From: Chloroflexi bacterium HGW-Chloroflexi-6
GTDB taxonomy: Bacteria > Chloroflexota > Anaerolineae > Anaerolineales > Villigracilaceae
Length of the DNA stretch: 64,000 nt
Direction of reading: 5' to 3'
Assembly: GCA_002840685.1 (NCBI GenBank)
Contig: PHBU01000002.1
Coordinates: 186,001-250,000 of the forward strand
Of this stretch, positions 35,851 to 48,680 are shown piece by piece. The notes under the pieces were generated by a model that saw only the letters and a program-made list of their open reading frames with translations, had not been told where the DNA came from and did not search any database. How positions within the stretch are numbered: the stretch's first letter is position 1; every line of letters starts with the position of its first letter. Both the position numbers and the translations under genes were made by a program.

Positions 35851-36567
35851 ATGGTTATTGTTTATTTTGATGATATTGCAGGTAAGGTGTGTGCTAATCC
35901 TGATTGTGGCTGGAAGCCATTGAGCGACTTTTCGCATCGTCGGCAGGGCGGGTATCTTGTCGGTGATGGTTATAAATCACGTTGTCGCGATTGTGCAAAT
36001 GCTCAAAAGCGCGCTGAACGTGGTGCGAAACCAGGGCAATATCGAGAAAGTGCTCGTCAGTATGTTCAGGCTAATTTAGAACACATTCAAGCGCTAAAAC
36101 GTTCTCACCAACAGGCAAATCCAGGGAAATATCGCGATGCGTTAATCAAATATCGCCTTCAACACCGCGAGAAAATCAATGCACTAGCGCGAGAACGGCG
36201 AAGCAGAAACCTTGAGTATTTTCGAGAGATTGGTCGTCGCTCGCGTGCGATACATGCAGAAAAACGAAATGCATATCAGCGCCAATATGGCAAGCAGAAT
36301 CGCGAGAAACTGACCCATTACACCAACCAACGTCGTGTTCGGAAACTTTTAGCACCAGGCTCACATTCTGAGCAAGAATGGCAACTCATCAAGCAATATT
36401 ATGGTTACAGATGCTTGTGCTGCGGAAAAGTCGAACCAGAAATTCAACTCACCCGTGACCATATTGTGCCGCTAGGTGCAGGCGGGAGCGATGTGATAGA
36501 AAATATTCAGCCGTTATGCGCTCGTTGTAATAGCAAAAAAAGCACCAAGGTTATTGATTATCGTTAA
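35851..36567 (+). CDS. HNH endonuclease-domain protein
   Basis: [46 protein letters not shown]; basic coiled central region; N-terminal CxxC...CxxC. Confidence 0.92.
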
Positions 36568-37991
36568 GCAACGGCAAGAGTTCTTGGGTCTGTAACAACT
36601 CCTGTTACAGCGGTAGCTGCTGCGGTTAGCGGGCTTGCCAGGAATGAGCGTGAGCCTTTCCCTTGTCTTCCTTCAAAATTTCTGTTTGAAGTGCTGACAC
36701 AATACTGACCTGCAGGAACTTCGTCGCCATTCATTGCGATGCAGAGGCTACATCCCGCTTCGCGCCATTCGGCGCCGGCATCCTTGAAGACTTTGTCCAA
36801 CCCTTCGGCTTCGGCCTGGCGTTTGACCATTCCGGAACCTGGCACGACCAGCACGCGCAGACCATCGGCCACTTTCTTGCCTTTCAGGTAGGCCGCCGCC
36901 TGGCGCAGATCGGATATGCGCGAGTTGGTGCACGAGCCGATGAAGACAACATCCACTTTTTTGCCAAGCAGGCTTTCACCAGGATATAAGCCCATATAGG
37001 TCAGTGCTTTGCGCAGAGCCAGCCGCATATTCTCATCGTCGAAGTGGTCCGGGTCCGGTACGCGGCCCGTGATCGACATGCCCATGCCGGGATTGGTGCC
37101 GTAGGTGATCATTGGCTCCAGTTCGTCAGCGTTGATGACGACCGTCTTGTCGTAGACGGCGCCTTCATCGCTGGGCAGGGTTTTCCAGGCCGCAACAGTT
37201 TTGTCCCAGTCTGCGCCTTTAGGGGCGAATTCGCGGCCTTTGAGATATTCAAAAGTCGTTTCATCGGGGGCGATCAACCCGGCGCGCGCGCCGCCTTCGA
37301 TTGACATGTTGCAGATCGTCATGCGTTCTTCCATGCTCAGGTTGCGGATGGCTTCGCCGGTGTATTCGAAAACGTGCCCCGTTCCACCGCCGATGCCGAT
37401 CTTGGCGATCAGGGCCAGGATGATATCCTTGGCGGTTACGCCTGCCTTGAGTTTGCCGGTCACGCGCACTTCGTAGGTTTTGGGCTGGCGCTGGAGCAGA
37501 CACTGTGTTGCCAGAACGTGCTCAACTTCGCTGGTGCCGATGCCAAACGCCAGCGCGCCAAATGCGCCGTGTGTGGCTGTGTGGCTGTCGCCGCAGACGA
37601 TGGTCATGCCGGGCTGGGTAAAACCCAGTTCCGGCCCGATGACGTGTACGATGCCCTGTTTGTCGTTACCCATGCCATACAGCGGGATGCCGAACTCGGC
37701 GCAGTTGTCGGTCAACTGTTGGAGTTGGGATTTTGCCGCCAGATCGGCGTAAGCGAGGCGCCCAAACGGATCGGACGGGTCATCGGTACGGGTCGGAATC
37801 CCGTGATCCATGGTGGCGACCGTCTTGAGCGGCTGGCGGACTTTCAGTCCGCGAGTCCGCAAACCGGTAAAGGCTTGCGGCGAGGTCACTTCGTGGACAA
37901 GGTGCAAATCCACATACAGCACTGCCGGTGATTCGGGTTCCTGGGCAACGATATGCTTCTCCCAGATTTTTTGAAATAATGTTTTTGGCAT
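36564..37991 (-). CDS. leuC: 3-isopropylmalate dehydratase large subunit
   Basis: [12 protein letters not shown]...[30 protein letters not shown]...[17 protein letters not shown]. Confidence 0.97.
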
Positions 37992-37995
37992 GAAG

Positions 37996-38199
37996 TTATC
38001 CCAGTTCCGAGAGATTCCAGCCACCGGGCATCGTGCGCAGGCTTTCGACGTGCTCGATAAACCATTCAGCATGCGGGTCGGTGGTGGTTGGTTTGTTGGC
38101 GCGCGCAGGGGAGACTGGCGTCAGTTCAGAAAGGTCCCATCCGCCGGGGATGGTGCGAGGTTCGTATTCATCAAAGCTGATTTCTTCAGGTGCGTTCAT
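37996..38199 (-). CDS. 67 aa small protein with duplicated RT(I/M)PGGW(D/N)LSEL motif
   Basis: Good [86 protein letters not shown]; lies between leuC and leuA. Confidence 0.75.
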
Positions 38200-38254: not shown

Positions 38255-39874
38255 TTATCCATTTACTGCATTTGCAGCGGGTTTCTCTTCGTAGGTCGAG
38301 AGCAGCAACTTGTTCAAGGCTGAGAGATAGGCCTTGGCGCTGGCAACGATGATGTCGGTATCTGCGCCGTAACCGCCAAAGGTGCGGTGACGGGTATTTT
38401 CGGTCTGCGGGGAGGTGCGGGTGGATGTGTTGCCGTTCTCGGCTTGCAGGCGGACTGTCACTTCGCCGAGGGCGTCGATGCCCTCGGTCACAGCGTGCAC
38501 GTTGAACTCCAGCAGCTTGTTTTTGGCATGCACAATCTGGTCGATGGCTTTGTAGATCGCATCGATCGGGCCGGTGCCGACTGCGGGCTGGATGTAGACC
38601 GCGCCATCCGGGCCGCGCAGGCGCACTGTGGCGGTTGGCAGGCCCATCGTGCCGCAGGCCACTTGCAGGCCGTCCAGGCTGTAGACTTCATTGGCCTGGT
38701 AAACCTGGTCTTCAACCAGCGCTTCCAGGTCGGCATCCGTGATGGTTTTTTTCTTGTCCGCCAGTTCCTTGAAACGATCGAAAATCACGCCCAGATCGTC
38801 GGGGCTGAACTCGTATCCCATCTCTTGCAGGTGGACTTTGAGCGCATGCCGACCAGAATGTTTGCCCAACACCAACTTCGAGCGGCTCAGGCCGACCGTT
38901 TCGGGCAGCATGATCTCGTAGGTCTGGTGGTTTTTGAGCATACCATCCTGGTGGATGCCGGCTTCATGGGCAAACGCGTTCGCTCCGACAATCGCCTTGT
39001 TGGGTTGGACGGTCATGCCGGTGTAATTGCTGACCAGTTTGCTGACGCGAGTGATCTGGGTGCTGTCGATGCCGGTTGTGCAGTTGTAGGTATGCGGGCG
39101 GGTTTTGAGCGCCATCACAATTTCTTCCATGGCGGTATTTCCAGCCCGTTCGCCGATGCCATTGATGGTCACTTCGGCCTGGCGCGCCCCGGCCTGGATA
39201 CCGGCCAGAGTGTTGGCTGTTGCCAGCCCCAGATCGTTGTGGCAATGCACCGAAACGGTGATACCTTCATGCATGCCGGGAGTGTTCTTGATGATCCCGT
39301 CGATCAACGCGCCGAACTCTTCCGGTGTCGTATAGCCAACTGTGTCCGGGATGTTGAGGGTGGTCGCTCCCGCGCGGATAGCTTCGCCCAGCACCACGTA
39401 CAAGAATTCCGGGTCAGAGCGGCCGCCGTCTTCGGGGCTGAATTCGACATCCTCGCACAACGTGCGGGCATAGCTGACCATTTCGTAGACTTTTTCAACC
39501 ACTTCTTCGGGATCCATCTTGAGCTTGTATTTCATATGGATCGGCGAAGTCGCCAAAAAGGTGTGGATGCGTGGATGTTTGGCGTGCTGGACGGCCTCCC
39601 AGGAGGCGTCGATGTCGTTTTTGGTAGCCCGCGCCAGGCCGCAGATGACCGGAGCTTTCGTCCCGTCGGTGGGGTTGCCCACCTCGATTGCGATCCGACG
39701 GACAGCTTCCAGATCGTCTGGCGAAGCGGCGGGGAAGCCGGCCTCGATCACATCCACGCCCAGACGGGCCAGCGAACGAGCAACTTCCAGCTTCTCTGCC
39801 GAAGTCATGGTCGCGCCGGGAGATTGCTCGCCGTCGCGCAGGGTGGTATCGAAGATTTTTACATAATTAGACAT
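38255..39874 (-). CDS. leuA: 2-isopropylmalate synthase
   Basis: [50 protein letters not shown]...[37 protein letters not shown]. Confidence 0.97.
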
Positions 39875-39894
39875 AAGTTGCTCCAAATAATCGC

Positions 39895-39973
39895 TGGTCG
39901 AGTAGGGTGTTGCGGTGGTTTCAATATGGCACAAGCGGCCTACTCAACCACCGCAACACCCGTATCGAAACCT
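39895..39973. repeat. hairpin/MITE-like intergenic repeat
   Basis: ggtcgagtagggtgttgcggtggttt...ctcaaccaccgcaacacccgtatcgaaacc: inverted arms. Confidence 0.75.
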
Positions 39974-41025
39974 TACTTTTGCCAGTTTTCAGGCCTCAAT
40001 GAGCGGACAGCTGCGCCAGCCTGCCACATTTCTGATTCGTGGATGACTTTGAGTTCTTCTTCGAGTTTGACGCGATAATCGGGGCGGCTGTTGGCTTCGA
40101 GCGTGATGCGGGCTTCGTTGCCGGTTACAACGCTCTGGTACAGGTCGCTGAAAACAGGAGCAACTGCATCGCGGAATTTGTCTTTCCAATCCAGTGCGCC
40201 GCGTTGGGCGGTGGTTGAACAGTTGGCATACATCCAATCCATGCCGTTCTGGCCGACCAGGCGGATCAGCGACTGGGTCAGTTCTTCGACGGTTTCGTTG
40301 AAGGCTTCGCTCGGACTGTGGCCGTTGGCGCGCAGGGTGTTGTATTGCGCTTCCATCACGCCTGCAAGGGCGCCCATCAGGATGCCGCGTTCGCCGGTCA
40401 GGTCGCTGTAAACTTCCTTTTGGAAGGTGGTTGGGAAAAGATAGCCTGCGCCGATGGCGATGCCGAGGGCGATGGTGCGTTCCATGGCGCGACCGGTTGC
40501 ATCCTGGTGGACAGCGAAACTGGCATTGATGCCGGAACCGTCCAGGAAGTTGGTACGAACGCTGCGCCCGGAGCCTTTCGGTGCGACCAGGGCCACATCG
40601 ACATGCGGGGGCGGCACAACACCGGTATCTTCCTTAAAAGTGACCGAGAAGCCGTGCGAGAAATACAGCATGTCGCCTTCGTTGAGCGTCTCGACGATCT
40701 TGGGCCACTGGCTGCGCTGACCGGCATCCGAAAGCAGGTATTGGATGACCGTGCCGCGTTCTGCGGCTTCTTCAACGGTAAAGAGCGTCTTGCCGGGGAC
40801 CCAGCCATCTGCGACAGCTTTGTCCCAGTTGGATGTGCCTTCGCGCTGACCAACGATAACGTTGATGCCGTTATCGCGCATGTTCATGGCCTGAGCCGGG
40901 CCTTGCACGCCGTAACCCAAAACTGCCACAACTTCGTTCTTCAAAACTTCACGCGCTTTTTCAAGCGGGAATTCTTCGCGAGTTACAACTTCTTCCACGG
41001 TGCCGCCAAAATTAATTTTTGCCAT
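39973..41025 (-). CDS. ilvC: ketol-acid reductoisomerase
   Basis: VVAVLGYGVQGPAQAMNMRDNGINVIVGQREG...DLTGERGILMGALAGVMEAQYNTLRANGHSPSEAFNETVEELTQSL. Confidence 0.96.
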   Translation of the reverse strand: MAKINFGGTVEEVVTREEFPLEKAREVLKNEVVAVLGYGVQGPAQAMNMRDNGINVIVGQREGTSNWDKAVADGWVPGKTLFTVEEAAERGTVIQYLLSDAGQRSQWPKIVETLNEGDMLYFSHGFSVTFKEDTGVVPPPHVDVALVAPKGSGRSVRTNFLDGSGINASFAVHQDATGRAMERTIALGIAIGAGYLFPTTFQKEVYSDLTGERGILMGALAGVMEAQYNTLRANGHSPSEAFNETVEELTQSLIRLVGQNGMDWMYANCSTTAQRGALDWKDKFRDAVAPVFSDLYQSVVTGNEARITLEANSRPDYRVKLEEELKVIHESEMWQAGAAVRSLRPENWQK

Positions 41026-41050
41026 GATATCTTTCTCCTTATTTATTTGA

Positions 41051-41116
41051 ATACAGAAGTCAAAATGCAGCACGAGGGATGAGATTTTGTATCCCGCGTT
41101 CTACATTCTGCATTTG
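41051..41116. repeat. intergenic relative of the GCAGAAT/ATTCTGC palindromic element
   Basis: acagaagtcaaaatgcagcacgagggatgag...atcccgcgttctacattctgcatt. Confidence 0.55.
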
Positions 41117-41118
41117 TT

Positions 41119-41679
41119 TTAGTAATCCGCCAGACCTTGCGGGTCGTCATTGTTCCAGCCATTACCGTTCGCGCCAGCCGTGCGGCGGACTCCCGAATGG
41201 GCGCCGCGCATCATCGAGACCTGGCCGGTGCGCACCATTTCGGCGATGCCGATCGGGCGCAGCAGTTCGATCATGCCTTCGATTTTTTCCTCGGTGCCGG
41301 TGATCTCAACGATGACCGAATCAGCCGCCACATCCACGATGCGGGCCCGGAAAATTTCAGCCAGGTTATTGACCTCAGAGCGTTTCTCGGGGCCGACCTG
41401 CACCTTGATCAGCGCCAGGTCACGGGTCACCGCGGGTTGGCGGGTGACATCCTGCACATCGATGATGTTGACCAATTTATACAAATTGGCCTCGATTTTG
41501 TGGGCGTCCATGTCGCCGTTGGCGCAATCGACCACGATTGTCATCCGCGAAACATCCGGTTTTTCGGTTCGCCCGACAGCCAACGATTCGATGTTGAAAT
41601 TGCGACGGCGAAAGAGCGACGCCACACGGTTCAAAACACCGGGTTTATTTTCTACAAGTGCGATGAATGTATATTGCAT
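41119..41679 (-). CDS. ilvN: acetolactate synthase small subunit
   Basis: TFIALVENKPGVLNRVASLFRRRNFNIESLAVGRTEKPDVSRMTIVV. Confidence 0.96.
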   Translation of the reverse strand: MQYTFIALVENKPGVLNRVASLFRRRNFNIESLAVGRTEKPDVSRMTIVVDCANGDMDAHKIEANLYKLVNIIDVQDVTRQPAVTRDLALIKVQVGPEKRSEVNNLAEIFRARIVDVAADSVIVEITGTEEKIEGMIELLRPIGIAEMVRTGQVSMMRGAHSGVRRTAGANGNGWNNDDPQGLADY

Positions 41680-41689
41680 GGTTTCCTCT

Positions 41690-43384
41690 TTACTTTTTTT
41701 CCTGCCGGACGGGCCTGCGGATCATCTGGTCGAGCGCTGCGCCTGCCGGAACCATCGGGTAGACGGCATCTTCTTTTTCTACGCGGAATTCAAGCACAAC
41801 CGGGCCGGGCGTTTTGCGCGCCCATTCGATGGCTTCTGCGACTTCTTCCCGTTTGGTCACGAGGCGGGCCGGGATGCCGTGCGCGTCTGCCAGTTTGACA
41901 AAGTCAGGGCTGAGCATGTTGACCGCAGAGTAGCGCTTCTCGAAGAAAAATTCCTGCCACTGGCGCACCATGCCCAGGAAGTTATTGTTCATGATTGCAA
42001 CCTTGACGTTCGCGCCTTCCTGGACGGCGGTCGAAAGCTCACAGGCAGTCATCTGGAAGCCGCCGTCGCCGGCAACCGCCCAGATCTCCTGGTCTTTTTT
42101 GGCAAACCAGGCCCCGATTGCGGAGGGCAGGCCAAAGCCCATCGTTCCGGCGCCACCAGATGTGATCCAGCGGTTGGGTTTGTCGAGGTGGTAATACTGG
42201 GCTGTCCACATCTGGTGCTGGCCCACATCGGTGGTCACAATTGCCCCGCCTCCGGTCGCTTTCCAGATGTCGCTGATCAGGTGGGCAACATACAGCTTCT
42301 CGTCATCCGGCCAGGCCATGATGCTGCGGGCGTCGCCTTCATCGCGCCAGGCATGGATTTGTCCGAGCCATTCGTCGTGTTCGTATTCATCGACCATCGG
42401 CACCAGATCGGTCAGGACGGTCTTCAGATCGCCGACCAGCGGCACGTCGACTGCTACGTTTTTGTGAACTTCCGAAGGGTCGATCTCGATGTGGATTTTC
42501 TTGGCTTTGGGCGCGTAAGTTTTGAGTGTGCCGGTCACGCGGTCGTCGAAGCGCATCCCGAAGGCCAGGATCAGATCCGAGTTCTGGATGGCCAGGTTGG
42601 TGTGGGCCTCGCCGTGCATGCCCATCATCCCCAGGCTAAGCGGGTGCGAAGCGGGGAAGGCGCCCAGCCCGAGCAGGGTGCTGGCGACCGGGGTCTGGGT
42701 CTTGATCGCAAAGTGCTGCAGGATTTCTTCTGCGCCAGACATGATGATGCCATGCCCGCACAGGATGATCGGGCGCTGGGACTGCTCAATCAGGGCCACC
42801 GCGCTTTCCAGGTCAACTTTGGGCGCGTGTGAAGGTGGCTGGTAGCCGGGCAATTTAACTTCTTCGGGGTAGATGAATTCGGTTTGTTCGATTTGCGCGT
42901 TCTTGCAAATATCGATCAGCACGGGGCCTGGCCGGCCGCTGCGGGCGATATAGAACGCCTCGCGCACCACTTCGGCAATTTCATCGGCACGGGTGACGAG
43001 ATAATTGTGCTTGGTGATCGGCAGGGTAATGCCGGTCACATCCACTTCCTGGAAGGCGTCGCCGCCGATCAAGTGCGCGGCTACTTGCCCGGTGATAAAA
43101 ACCACTGGCGAAGAGTCCATCATCGCTGTTGCAATGCCCGTTACCAGGTTGGTTGCGCCTGGTCCCGATGTCCCCATTGCCACCCCAACCTTGCCCGAAG
43201 CGCGGGCGTAGCCATCGGCCATGTGCGCCGCGCCTTGTTCATGGCGCACCAGCACATGGTGGATCGGGTAGCTCAGCATGGCATCGTAAATCGGCATGTT
43301 CGCGCCACCGGGGTAGCCAAAGACAACATCCACGCCCTCCCGCACTACACACTCCCACATTATTTCAGCACCAGTTTTTTTCAT
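41690..43384 (-). CDS. ilvB: acetolactate synthase large subunit
   Basis: VFGYPGGANMPIYDAM...RHEQGAAHMADGYARASGKVGVAMGTSGPGATNLVTGIATA. Confidence 0.97.
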   Translation of the reverse strand: MKKTGAEIMWECVVREGVDVVFGYPGGANMPIYDAMLSYPIHHVLVRHEQGAAHMADGYARASGKVGVAMGTSGPGATNLVTGIATAMMDSSPVVFITGQVAAHLIGGDAFQEVDVTGITLPITKHNYLVTRADEIAEVVREAFYIARSGRPGPVLIDICKNAQIEQTEFIYPEEVKLPGYQPPSHAPKVDLESAVALIEQSQRPIILCGHGIIMSGAEEILQHFAIKTQTPVASTLLGLGAFPASHPLSLGMMGMHGEAHTNLAIQNSDLILAFGMRFDDRVTGTLKTYAPKAKKIHIEIDPSEVHKNVAVDVPLVGDLKTVLTDLVPMVDEYEHDEWLGQIHAWRDEGDARSIMAWPDDEKLYVAHLISDIWKATGGGAIVTTDVGQHQMWTAQYYHLDKPNRWITSGGAGTMGFGLPSAIGAWFAKKDQEIWAVAGDGGFQMTACELSTAVQEGANVKVAIMNNNFLGMVRQWQEFFFEKRYSAVNMLSPDFVKLADAHGIPARLVTKREEVAEAIEWARKTPGPVVLEFRVEKEDAVYPMVPAGAALDQMIRRPVRQEKK

Positions 43385-43452: not shown

Positions 43453-45123
43453 TTACTCTGTCGAGAGCACTGCGCCTGTATCCGCGCTGGTCACAAAATG
43501 GGCATAACGCTTTAGCCACTTACTGCTTGTCTTTACCTTGAAAGGCGGCAGCGCTGCCAGTCTTTTTTGAATTTCCTCATCCGTTAAGCGGACGTTTAAT
43601 GTGCGGGCCATCAGATCCAATTCGATCATGTCACCCGGCTGAATGGCCGCGATCGGCCCACCCGCAGCCGCCTCCGGGGAAACATGCCCGATACAGGCCC
43701 CACGCGTGCCGCCGCTAAAACGACCGTCGGTGACCAGCGCGACTTTGTCGCCCAGGCCCATGCCCATGATGGCGCTGGTCGGCGAGAGCATTTCCTGCAT
43801 GCCCGGTCCGCCGCGCGGCCCCTCGTAGCGGATGACAACCACATCCCCGGCCTGCACTTCGCGCGCCATGATGCCTTTGATGGCCTCGTCTTGCGATTCG
43901 TAGATCCGTGCCGGGCCGGAAAATTTGATCATTGAATGTCCCACGCCGCCAGTCTTGACGACTGCGCCGTTGGGGGCCAGGTTGCCGAACAGCACGGATA
44001 GCCCGCCGTGGATCGAGTGCGGATTGTCAAAATGGCGGATGACTTCATCGTCCTTGATCTCGGCATCCTTGATCGATTCACCCAGGCTGACGCCCGAAAC
44101 GGTGATGCGGTCAAAGTGCAGCGAGTTGGTCCCGCGTTGGACTTCCTGCAAAATAGCGGGAATGCCTCCGGCGCGGTGAACATCTTCCATGTGCCATTTG
44201 CCTGAGGGGGAAACCTTGCACAGGTGCGGAACCCGTTCCGACACCATGTTGATGCGCGCCATCGGGTAATCCAGCCCGGCTTCGTGGGCGATCGCCAGTG
44301 TATGCAGCACGGTGTTGGTCGAACCGCCCATCGCCATGTCCAGCGCGAAGGCATCGTCCAGCGCTTCGGCGGTGACAATGTCACGCGGTTTGATCTGGCG
44401 CTCGATCAGATCCATGATGCGCCCGGCGGCTTTGCGTGCCAGTTCTTCGCGTTCGGGGGTCTTGGCCAGCGCAGAACCGTTGTAGGGCAGGGCCAGTCCC
44501 AGGGCTTCCATCAGGCAGTTCATGCTGTTGGCTGTAAACATGCCGGAGCACGATCCGCACGAAGGACAGGCGAAATCTTCAAGCAGTTTCAGGCGCGCGG
44601 CGTCGATTTTTCCGCTGGCGAAGGCGCCAACGCCTTCGAAGACTGAGATCAGGTCGATTTTTTCACCGTCCGGGGTGCGCCCGGCGGCCATCGGGCCACC
44701 CGAAATAAAAATCGCCGGGATGTTGACCCTGGCCGCAGCCATCAACATACCCGGAACGATTTTGTCGCAGTTGGGAATGCACACCATGCCGTCGAACTGG
44801 TGCGCTTCCATCATGGTTTCCACGCAGTCGGCGATCAACTCGCGCGACGGCAGGGAAAATTTCATACCAGAATGCCCCATGGCGATGCCATCATCGACGC
44901 CGATGGTGTTGAACTCGAATGGAACCGCTCCGGCGGCGCGCACGGCATCCTTGATCAGCTTGCCAAAATCTTGCAGGTGAACATGCCCGGGGACAATATC
45001 CACGTATGAGTTGACGATTGCCACAAAAGGCTTGTCCATGTCGGCATCGGTGACGCCGGTAGCCTTGAGTAAAGCCCTGTGCGGGGCGCGCTCAAAGCCT
45101 GATTTGATCGTTGAAGAACGCAT
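43453..45123 (-). CDS. ilvD: dihydroxy-acid dehydratase
   Basis: [36 protein letters not shown]...[28 protein letters not shown]. Confidence 0.97.
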
Positions 45124-45149: not shown

Positions 45150-45184
45150 GAAAAAAGCCGCCCGTTGGTGATTGGGCGGCTCTT
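45150..45184 (-). terminator. attenuator terminator 2 (proximal to ilvD)
   Basis: Minus strand AGAGCCGCCCAATCACCAACGGGCGGCTTTTTTC. Confidence 0.9.
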
Positions 45185-45214
45185 ATCTTGCTTGATTGTG
45201 TGCTTTTTCAGCCA

Positions 45215-45313
45215 CTATCCTCGCGCCATTCCAACCACCATCGTGCTCTCCCGCTTAAGCAGGAGGACGGTAATCAAAATTACTACGAGGTAAAACAAGG
45301 AATGTGGGTTCAT
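45215..45313 (-). CDS. leader peptide 2, BCAA-rich (32 aa)
   Basis: MNPHSLFYLVVILITVLLLKRESTMVVGMARG*, immediately upstream of terminator 2. Confidence 0.8.
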   Translation of the reverse strand: MNPHSLFYLVVILITVLLLKRESTMVVGMARG

Positions 45314-45335
45314 GGTTTCCTGAAATTTGTTAGTA

Positions 45336-45367
45336 AGAAAAGAGCCGCCCTGTGGTTGGGCGGCTCT
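45336..45367 (-). terminator. attenuator terminator 1 (distal)
   Basis: Minus strand AGAGCCGCCCAACCACAGGGCGGCTCTTTTCTT. Confidence 0.9.
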
Positions 45368-45386
45368 GGCTACTTTCTACCTTGCA

Positions 45387-45491
45387 CTAGTGTGCTTTTG
45401 CCTGCCCAACCTGAATGAAGCTCTCAAGGATGATACCCAGGAGAACTACAATAATAATAACTACAAGGGACAGGCTGTAAACGTTTTCCAT
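45387..45491 (-). CDS. leader peptide 1, BCAA-rich (34 aa)
   Basis: MENVYSLSLVVIIIVVLLGIILESFIQVGQAKAH*, immediately upstream of terminator 1. Confidence 0.85.
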   Translation of the reverse strand: MENVYSLSLVVIIIVVLLGIILESFIQVGQAKAH

Positions 45492-45557
45492 AATTCGCCC
45501 GATGATAAGGTTTAGACAACTTTCTGTCAATTCAGTTATCTAAATTTTATGCTTTCT

Positions 45558-46223
45558 TTATGCTGTGTGCTGCTCCACAAAAATATAACGCGCAACGGCA
45601 AATCCCAGGGTAACCAATTGGCCGCCAACTTCGACGCTGATGGTCTGGTTAAAAGGCAGGATTTCACCGAGAGTGGCCTGCGCGCCGGGCATCATTTTTT
45701 TCTCTTCGAGAAAAGCCAGCAAGGGCGGATTTTCCTCTGCCAATTCGTGGACGCGGCGGATGGTAACTTTTTGTCCGCTGGCGAGTTGGGTGAGCGGAAC
45801 CCAGTCTGCGACGGCGGCTTCGCAGCCCGGCAGCGGGTTGCCGTGTGGACAGGTCTGCGGCCTGCCCAACTCTTCGTACACGGCCGCTTCGGCTTCGGGT
45901 GAAATGGCATGCTCCAGGTGATGGGCTTCGCCGTGCAATTTCGACCAGGGCAGCATGCGCAGCATCATCCACTCCATCAGCATGTGGCGGCGCATGACAT
46001 CTTTGGCCGAGACCCATCCGTGCTCGGTCAGGTGGGTGCCGTGATCATCCATGGTGATCAGCCCATCGCGTGTCATCCGTTTCAGGGTGTTTGTCACGGT
46101 TGGCGATGTGACACCGATCAACTCGGCCAAACGCGCGCCGACGATCGGCTCACCATCTCGTTCGAGAACATAGAGCAAAGATAAGTAATCCTCTATCGTT
46201 TGGCTAAGTTTATTTTGTTCCAT
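45558..46223 (-). CDS. DtxR/MntR-family metal-dependent transcriptional regulator
   Basis: TIEDYLSLLYVLERDGEPIVGARLAELIGVTSPTVTNTLKRMTRDGLI...HHLEHAISPEAEAAVYEELGRPQTCPHGNPLPG. Confidence 0.95.
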   Translation of the reverse strand: MEQNKLSQTIEDYLSLLYVLERDGEPIVGARLAELIGVTSPTVTNTLKRMTRDGLITMDDHGTHLTEHGWVSAKDVMRRHMLMEWMMLRMLPWSKLHGEAHHLEHAISPEAEAAVYEELGRPQTCPHGNPLPGCEAAVADWVPLTQLASGQKVTIRRVHELAEENPPLLAFLEEKKMMPGAQATLGEILPFNQTISVEVGGQLVTLGFAVARYIFVEQHTA

Positions 46224-46398: not shown

Positions 46399-46647
46399 AT
46401 GCCGTTCAAACCCAATGCTATTTTTCTCTCTGAAATTAACACTGGCGAAAGCGCATTTGTCTTGGATTTTTCAAACGGACAGGGCATTGCCGGTCGTTTG
46501 ACCTCGCTCGGTTTTACCCCCGGCGTGGAAGTCAAAATGACCCAAAATTTTGGACGCGGCCCTTTGATCGTGACCGTGCGTGGCACGCGGGTCGCGCTCG
46601 GGCGCGGTGAGGCGGCTAGGATCTGTGTCCAACGGAGCCTTGAATGA
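46399..46647 (+). CDS. feoA: ferrous iron transport protein A
   Basis: GQGIAGRLTSLGFTPGVEVKMTQNFGRGPLIVTVRGTRVALGRGEAARI. Confidence 0.93.
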   Translation: MPFKPNAIFLSEINTGESAFVLDFSNGQGIAGRLTSLGFTPGVEVKMTQNFGRGPLIVTVRGTRVALGRGEAARICVQRSLE

Positions 46648-48680
46648 GCGGGGAATGTCACGATGTTGCACCGGATACAACAACTGTAAAAAGGGTTGGC
46701 CTGCCGATGATTGCTTTGGCTGGCCAACCGAACATGGGTAAATCAACCCTCTTTAATCTGTTGACCGGGCTGAACCAGCATGTGGGCAATTGGCCGGGCA
46801 AAACCGTCGAGCGCCGCGAAGGCAACTTCAGCATGGATGGCAGCGAGTACAACCTGGTCGATTTGCCGGGAACCTATAGCCTGACTGCCAACTCTCCTGA
46901 AGAAGTGATTGCGCGCGAGTTTATCCTGCGCGAATCGCCGGATGTGGTTGTGGCGGTCGTCAGCGCGGCCAACCTGGAGCGCAGCCTGTACCTGGTTTCC
47001 GAGCTGATCTGCCTGCCTGTCCGCCTGGTGGTTGCGCTCAATATGATGGATGTGGCTGCCGGAGAAGGATTGATCGTCGAGCCGGAGGTGCTTGAAGCCG
47101 CCCTGGGTGTGCCGGTCGTCCCGATCACGGCGACCAAGGCCAAGGGTATCCGGGAACTGCTTTACATCGTCCGCAAAACTTTGGATGGAAAAATCCAACA
47201 CTGCCCGCGTTTGCCTGAAATCCGCGCGGACCACCGCGACGCCCTCGACCAGGTGCTTTCATTGCTGGCCGGGCGCGTTCCCGCGCCTTACCCGCCCGAA
47301 TGGATCGCGCTCAAGCTGCTGGAAGGCGATATCGAAGTGACGCGCACCATGCAAACGGCTTTGCCCGTTGAAACCTGGACGGCGGTCCACGCCATTCTCG
47401 TCCAGCACGACGATGCCATGCTGGCAGTCGCTTCGGGCCGTTACGAGTGGGTCGGGCGGATGGTGCGGGCGGCGGTCGTGCGGCCCCGTCTCGGGCAGAT
47501 CAGCCTGACCGAACGTCTGGACCGCGTTGCCGCGCACCCGGTTTGGGGCCTGTTCGTGCTGGCAGGGATTTTGGGACTGGTTTTCTGGCTGACCTTCACG
47601 GTTGGTGCACCCCTGCAAGAATGGCTGGATGTGGTTGTTGTTGGTGGGATTTCCGATCTGGCATCAACCGTCCTGGCTGGCGCTCCCTGGTGGGTCAGCG
47701 GCCTGATCGTGGACGGGATCATCGGCGGGGTTGGCTCGGTGCTGACCTTCCTGCCGATCCTGGTGATCTTTTTTGCCGCTTTCGGCCTGCTCGAAGATGT
47801 CGGTTATATGGCGCGCGCGGCCTATGTGATGGACAACTTGATGCATCTGATGGGCCTGCACGGCAAATCTTTCCTGCCGCTTTTTCTCGGGTTTGGCTGT
47901 AACGTGCCCTCGATCATGGGTACGCGCGTGATCGACTCGTGGCCGGCGCGCCTGCTGACGATTTTGATCGCCCCGCTTGTGCCTTGCACGGCGCGCATGG
48001 CGGTGGTGGCCTTCCTGGCCCCAGCCTTTTTTGGCAAAAATGCTTTGTGGGTGACGTGGGGCTTGGTGATTTTCTCGCTCGCAACCCTGGTCGGGCTGGG
48101 AACGGTTTTGAATCGTGTCCTGTTCAAAGGGGAGCGCTCGGCTTTTATCATGGAAATGCCGCTTTATCACATCCCGAACTGGCGCACGGTGGGATTACTG
48201 GTCTGGGGGCGCGCGATCTCGTTCGTCAAAAAGGCGGGCACAGTGATTTTGGCCATTTCGGCTGTCATCTGGGCGCTTTCGGTCTTGCCTGGCGGCGATA
48301 TTGAAACCAGCTACCTGGCCCAATTTGGAAAATTTTTCGAGCCGGTTGGGCGTTTGATGGGCTTCGACTGGCGCTTGACGGTGGCCCTGCTGACGACTTT
48401 CCCGGCCAAAGAGAACGCGATCGCCACTTTGGGCGTGCTCTACGGTGGCGCGAGCGAATCCGGGCTGGCGGTGGCGCTGACCCAGTCGTTCTCGACAGCC
48501 ACGGCGATCTCTTTCCTGGCTGTGACCATGCTCTTCGTGCCCTGCCTGGCGACGGTGGCGGTGATCAAGCAGGAAACCAATTCGTGGCGCTGGACACTGA
48601 CCAACGTTGCCATGTTCCTGGTGATCTCGATCCTGGCGGGCATCCTGATCTACAATGCAGCGCTGTGGATGGGGCTTTAA
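46644..48680 (+). CDS. feoB: ferrous iron transport protein B
   Basis: LAGQPNMGKSTLFNLLTGLNQHVGNWPGKTVERREG...DLPGTYSL...VALNMMD; C-terminal permease GFGCNVPSIMGTRVI. Confidence 0.97.
   Translation: MSGECHDVAPDTTTVKRVGLPMIALAGQPNMGKSTLFNLLTGLNQHVGNWPGKTVERREGNFSMDGSEYNLVDLPGTYSLTANSPEEVIAREFILRESPDVVVAVVSAANLERSLYLVSELICLPVRLVVALNMMDVAAGEGLIVEPEVLEAALGVPVVPITATKAKGIRELLYIVRKTLDGKIQHCPRLPEIRADHRDALDQVLSLLAGRVPAPYPPEWIALKLLEGDIEVTRTMQTALPVETWTAVHAILVQHDDAMLAVASGRYEWVGRMVRAAVVRPRLGQISLTERLDRVAAHPVWGLFVLAGILGLVFWLTFTVGAPLQEWLDVVVVGGISDLASTVLAGAPWWVSGLIVDGIIGGVGSVLTFLPILVIFFAAFGLLEDVGYMARAAYVMDNLMHLMGLHGKSFLPLFLGFGCNVPSIMGTRVIDSWPARLLTILIAPLVPCTARMAVVAFLAPAFFGKNALWVTWGLVIFSLATLVGLGTVLNRVLFKGERSAFIMEMPLYHIPNWRTVGLLVWGRAISFVKKAGTVILAISAVIWALSVLPGGDIETSYLAQFGKFFEPVGRLMGFDWRLTVALLTTFPAKENAIATLGVLYGGASESGLAVALTQSFSTATAISFLAVTMLFVPCLATVAVIKQETNSWRWTLTNVAMFLVISILAGILIYNAALWMGL

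Follow-up and report, generated by a model that had tools for sequence, protein, structure and literature searches.

Two putative branched-chain amino acid attenuators arranged in series before the ilvD operon of a Chloroflexota bacterium

Introduction

The window analysed here (the whole 64,000-nt stretch of DNA, to which all coordinates refer) carries an operon for branched-chain amino acid synthesis whose first gene, ilvD, is preceded by two short reading frames rich in leucine, isoleucine and valine (L/I/V) codons, each with a terminator of its own. We examined if these are two complete ribosome-mediated attenuators and, if so, what a second one in series with the first could contribute. 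A 2010 genome-wide study (PMC2965389) knew amino-acid leader peptides only from Proteobacteria, Actinobacteria and, by its own finding, Firmicutes. Even a single module of the present kind is apparently undescribed in Chloroflexota: no such leader was found in the open literature searched, subscription journals lying largely outside it, and none is in Rfam. The reading we favour, at a probability of roughly 0.83, is that a single transcript passes through a pair of ribosome-mediated transcription attenuators, placed in series, which act as a double lock answering to the same signal.

Results

The order on the minus strand is a dtxR-type gene, promoter, leader 1, terminator 1 (T1), leader 2, terminator 2 (T2) and ilvD; between the stop codon of the dtxR-type gene (45558) and ilvD (45123), 380 nt of this strand hold the promoter and both modules. 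The first-pass annotation had described two leaders and two terminators followed by ilvD on the minus strand, and its sequences proved correct to the letter. A sigma-70-type promoter, TTGACA-17-TATCAT (45502..45530, minus strand; 11/12 match), is kept in tandem and single relatives, where the conserved form before module 1 and before single modules is TTGAC-17-TATAAT, followed by a 5' untranslated stretch of some 4-18 nt. Judged from the promoter position, transcription would be expected to start about 4 nt 5' of leader 1, making this frame nearly leaderless; no Shine-Dalgarno sequence was found before leader 1.

All features of the two modules lie on the minus strand. Leader peptide 1 (MENVYSLSLVVIIIVVLLGIILESFIQVGQAKAH, then stop; 34 aa; 45387..45491) has its control run at L9-L22, and its 3' part includes the antiterminator strand GGUUGGGCAGGC (45400..45411), placed by duplex energy and covariation. 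The intrinsic terminator T1, AGAGCCGCCC-AACCACA-GGGCGGCUCU followed by UUUU (45341..45367), contains the segment GCCGCCCAACC (45354-45364) that is the partner of this strand. A possible protector 5' arm, GCCUGUCCC (45467..45475), pairs with GGGCAGGC of the antiterminator strand in the minimum-energy fold of the full leader, on evidence weaker than that for the antiterminator. Module 2 begins with a Shine-Dalgarno sequence, AGGA (45318..45321), before leader peptide 2 (MNPHSLFYLVVILITVLLLKRESTMVVGMARG, then stop; 32 aa; 45215..45313; control run L9-L19); its antiterminator strand, again placed by duplex energy and covariation, is GGUGGUUGGAAUGGC (45225..45239), and the partner is the segment GCCGCCCAAUCACC (45167-45180) of the intrinsic terminator T2, AAGAGCCGCCC-AAUCACCAAC-GGGCGGCUUUU followed by UU (45153..45184). 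The stretch between T1 and leader 2 is too short for a promoter; since leader 2 has its own ribosome-binding site and there is no promoter room after T1, it is probably translated independently of leader 1, on the same RNA.

The operon 3' of the modules runs ilvD-ilvB-ilvH-ilvC-leuA-leuC, all on the minus strand: ilvD, dihydroxy-acid dehydratase (43453..45123; NCBIfam TIGR00110); ilvB, acetolactate synthase large subunit (41690..43384; TIGR00118); ilvH/ilvN, the small subunit (41119..41679; TIGR00119); ilvC, ketol-acid reductoisomerase (39973..41073; TIGR00465); leuA, 2-isopropylmalate synthase (38255..39934; TIGR00973/NF002086); and leuC, 3-isopropylmalate dehydratase large subunit (36564..38072; TIGR00170).

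Both leaders combine an L/I/V control-codon run with an intrinsic terminator before the first structural gene, as attenuators do, and this combination does not arise readily by chance. Short ORFs with at least nine L/I/V residues in ten consecutive codons occur exactly twice in the 64-kb window, each followed by a strong terminator; Markov-resampled windows (n = 40) held on average 0.1 such ORFs, and never one with a terminator. A covariance model scanned over the whole 5.26-Mb genome matched strongly only these two modules (E about 1e-13, scores partly by construction as both are among the 37 sequences used to build the model), the next match being at 0.03. Rfam families, searched over the window, gave no match at cut-off, no T-box and no riboswitch, and nothing convincing at a relaxed E-value; the best weak match was Phe_leader, with 21.5 bits of the 55 needed.

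An antiterminator that competes with the terminator is conserved and present in both modules. The 3' end of each leader can pair with the loop and 5' arm of the terminator in the same module: in module 1, GGUUGGGC-A-GGC pairs with GCC-GCCCAACC at -22.7 kcal/mol, and its own terminator is the best of 91 partners; in module 2, GGUGGUUGG-AAU-GGC pairs with GCC-GCC-CAAUCACC of its own terminator at -21.7 kcal/mol. Over 91 distinct modules the pairing with the own terminator averaged -19.9 kcal/mol, compared with -16.3 kcal/mol when terminators were swapped between modules (0 of 10,000 permutations were as low) and with -11.1 kcal/mol for shuffled leader ends. In the alignment of 37 modules (A1), 92% of cells were paired in the ten-pair antiterminator, compared with 21-56% once the partner was displaced by 1-3 columns. 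Seven of the ten pairs were changed on both sides (for example from GG-CC to CG, AU or UA pairs), which none of 500 shuffles reached; relatedness can inflate covariation counts, but in trials of the counting tool itself the measures based on such two-sided changes proved robust. The C-termini of the leaders alternate with the terminator loop, ...VRMA... occurring with CCUAACC and ...VG(M/T/K)A... with CCAACC or CCGACC, because the pairing of the antiterminator with the loop is kept. RNAalifold on the raw module alignment saw the terminator alone, as antiterminator and terminator exclude each other, and counting of the named structures together with the swap test was used instead. The prediction of an antiterminator for each module, proposed earlier as a check, thus yielded one in each, with preference for its own partner and with covariation.

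The effect of a stalled ribosome was assessed by folding the nascent RNA left free downstream of a ribosome with its A-site at each codon in turn, assuming an 11-nt downstream footprint and equilibrium folding. With the A-site in the L/I/V run, the probability of the nascent antiterminator was near 1 for single, first and second modules alike; it dropped just past the run and was 0 with the ribosome at the stop codon. An earlier form of the model, in which the full-length RNA was brought to equilibrium, penalised modules with strong terminators too heavily, and the nascent-RNA version is the fairer one. At full-length equilibrium the terminator of module 1 had a probability of 0.96 without a ribosome and of 0.001-0.07 with the A-site at codons 13-19, whereas T2 outcompeted the antiterminator of module 2 even with a stalled ribosome, so that module 2 would rely on co-transcriptional order. 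In nascent RNA free of any ribosome, the antiterminator is predicted to prevail in module 1 but not in module 2; the predicted behaviour of module 1 without translation would thus depart from the textbook protector model, and the protector hairpin (1:2) was seen in the full-length folds of both modules. Both modules are very probably classical ribosome-mediated attenuators, and the earlier proposal of ribosome-mediated branched-chain attenuation by two complete modules in series is supported by conservation, covariation and the stalling model.

We propose that the modules work as follows. RNA polymerase would start just 5' of leader 1. When leucyl-, isoleucyl- and valyl-tRNAs are charged, the ribosome would reach the stop codon and cover the antiterminator strand, and T1 would form; when any of the three runs short, a ribosome stalled in the L/I/V run would leave the antiterminator strand free to capture the terminator's loop and 5' arm, so that polymerase reads on. 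It would then meet module 2, with its own ribosome-binding site, where the same test would be repeated before ilvD. Only polymerases passing both modules would reach ilvDBHC-leuAC, and both leakage and response would multiply; the multiplicative gating raised in the first-pass annotation is plausible on this scheme. We infer that T1 and T2 both function in vivo, that the signal is charged tRNA and that each module acts independently of the other.

The same annotation had also spoken of different codon mixes in the two leaders, which would give amino-acid-specific gating. On such a reading module 1 would respond mainly to isoleucine and valine and module 2 mainly to leucine, as an AND or mixed gate suited to an ilv plus leu operon. 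The L/I/V fractions do shift slightly, from 37/37/26% in module 1 to 45/32/24% in module 2, and the module 2 run ends VLLL where that of module 1 ends VLII or VLIL in most tandems. However, all three amino acids stand within the stall-effective zone of both leaders, and the difference in composition is small and, over eight non-independent pairs, not significant enough to claim. The statement about codon mixes is unsupported, and we consider separate amino acid gates unlikely. That both leaders would sense Leu, Ile and Val, with little difference in composition, favours the double lock set by a single signal, whose likely role would be low leakage combined with steep induction.

Choice among synonymous codons in the control run was compared with the ilvD genes of the same genomes (41 modules with full ilvD). 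Of the Leu codons, CTT made up 54% in the control run and 4% in ilvD; ATT accounted for 85% vs 40% and GTC for 65% vs 34%, and GTG and CTG were avoided in the run. Theory (PMC1183508) predicts that control codons will be those read by the tRNAs most prone to losing their charge, and the observed bias is as expected if the codons were chosen for tRNA sensitivity; hairpins within the run may contribute to it too. Many single modules (L087, L091, L098, L105, L107 and others) have a perfect small hairpin, GGUCCUUAUUAUUAAGGACC, inside the control run (codons V-L-I-I-K-D), and module 2 has CUCCUUCUUxxxAAGGAG at the same place; this element is a candidate pause hairpin.

A covariance-model scan found modules in 103 of 152 genomes of the host family. 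The earlier proposal had been made to depend on conservation of the leader frame in relatives, and this frame is conserved: of the 90 loci in the family where the ilvD start could be located, 84 have an intact leader and terminator. One module is the rule, and tandems occur in 7 of the 103 module-bearing genomes, three of the host's own genus (G000, G047, G057) and four of four other genera (G024, G032, G003, G023). One further tandem, in G009 (L163), is decayed; its module 1 is intact, its leader 2 frameshifted and its terminator 2 broken. In six genomes of the family (G044, G081, G104, G110, G118, G001) the attenuator precedes a divergent ilvD with about 40-44% identity to the present IlvD, a pattern suggesting that another ilvD may have taken over behind a leader that was kept.

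The search was also extended to other Chloroflexota, as had been suggested. Modules of like kind precede ilvB in other classes and families, and one case each stands before ilvE (L256, G027:C42) and before the binding-protein gene of a branched-chain amino acid ABC transporter (L260, G473:C12), so that in this phylum the element would control more than ilvD and ilvB operons. In distant families the model matches only weakly, with E from 1e-7 to 7e-3; these modules appear to share the same design, from which shared descent does not follow at such E-values. A further Chloroflexota MAG (L010, JAEKNU010000015.1) has a tandem too.

The first-pass annotation had called the modules tandem duplicated. 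In a tree of 50 modules the second modules of five genera, with the decayed copy of G009, form one clade (99/99) that contains no module 1 and no single module, and a second tree of 95 modules recovered this clade (97). Recent tandem duplication was rejected, the two copies not being each other's nearest relatives in either tree, and the near-identity of the terminators reflects a GCCGCCC core common to nearly all family modules, with no sign of recent copying. Members of the module 2 clade were found only downstream of a module 1 and share a run ending VLLLxKER. Almost every tandem locus has a purine-rich ribosome-binding site (AGGA/AAGG) ahead of leader 2, the poorest being those of G023 and G057; none was seen before leader 1 of the tandems or before single-module leaders. 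By these trees module 2 is an old, distinct second module, apparently kept in some lineages and lost in others, or transferred between them. Mapped onto the IlvD tree, the tandem state has to change six times, a number compatible with a single old gain followed by many losses, or with transfer. For the module 2 of L010, which sits on long branches, the trees decided neither for nor against a place among the others (p-AU 0.39), and that tandem may have had an independent or a shared origin.

This history bears on whether module 1, the type that every relative retains, is alone the working sensor and module 2 a decaying relic or a constitutive brake. Single modules are the rule, G036 of the same genus has one (L083), and the second module of G009 has decayed; module 2 is thus dispensable in the long run, one module serving most relatives well. 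Yet G000 and G047, with a 3% difference in IlvD, share an identical leader 2 and a T2 that varies at one base, and the frame, ribosome-binding site, antiterminator and terminator of module 2 are kept in five genera; a relic or plain brake is therefore quite improbable here.

An added terminator could also insulate the operon from readthrough of the dtxR-type gene, which ends 27 nt 5' of the promoter on the same strand, no terminator having been found between them. Synteny argues strongly against this: G036 has the same upstream dtxR with only one module, and tandems of other genera have no upstream dtxR. A plain terminator, moreover, would need no conserved leader and antiterminator, and insulation was rejected as a very remote prospect. 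That the leader peptides, hydrophobic and conserved as they are, have a function of their own (e.g. as membrane peptides) beside ordinary terminators is scarcely credible, since their C-terminal residues vary in step with the terminator (VRM with CCUAACC, VGM with CCAACC), keeping the RNA pairing and not the peptide, and the synonymous codons of the control run are odd.

Discussion

The mechanism proposed for each module is of a known kind and very likely correct, and the novelty of the tandem lies in the serial arrangement. As in E. coli ilvGMEDA, ilvBN and leuABCD and in the ilvB leaders of Corynebacterium and Mycobacterium, a short L/I/V-rich leader ORF, a terminator and a competing antiterminator precede genes of the same pathway; unlike in those systems, the two modules stand in series, module 1 is near-leaderless and the Chloroflexota sequence is unrelated. 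No tandem is mentioned in the description of the actinobacterial set (PMC1262725).

The Salmonella mgtCBR leader (PMC3641672) likewise has two leader ORFs, each with an attenuator, in one mRNA leader. There, mgtM and mgtP sense different signals (ATP and proline) and act additively, without recognisable intrinsic terminators, and the authors called this tandem a "singular example". The two Chloroflexota modules, in contrast, are predicted to sense the same amino acids and to act via intrinsic terminators; an arrangement of the mgtCBR type, with two different signals, was set aside, the L/I/V codons being mixed in both leaders. The "double-lock" of the msrD macrolide-resistance leader (PMC10314930), in which two attenuators suppress basal expression, resembles the role proposed here, though stalling there depends on antibiotic and here would depend on amino acid supply. 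Tandem riboswitches and T-boxes (e.g. Bacillus clausii metE, in PMC3641672) also place two complete units of sensor and intrinsic terminator in series, with sensing by RNA aptamers rather than, as presumed here, by translating ribosomes.

A more specific form of the double lock is a two-stage cascade for the same signal, in which an ancient module 2, persisting 3' of the ordinary one in scattered lineages and with initiation distinct for each leader, provides either squared sensitivity or a leucine-weighted second gate for an operon whose products are all three branched-chain amino acids; we give this form an even chance. If true, this would make the tandem the first example of ribosome-mediated attenuators with intrinsic terminators placed in series for the same nutrients. 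With its strong covariation, the single module looks like the usual means by which much of Chloroflexota controls branched-chain amino acid synthesis. Closely related genomes with one module, with two, or with one and a decayed second before the same operon provide a natural test of serial attenuation.

Some neighbouring genes may be recorded. The dtxR gene (45558-46223, minus strand) encodes an iron repressor with DtxR/FeoA domains, and beyond it lies a divergent feoB (46644-48680, plus strand); a link of iron to the iron-sulphur enzymes IlvD and LeuC is possible. At the other end of the operon an HNH endonuclease ORF (35851-36567, plus strand; PF14279 and PF01844) converges on leuC and overlaps its 3' end by 4 bases.
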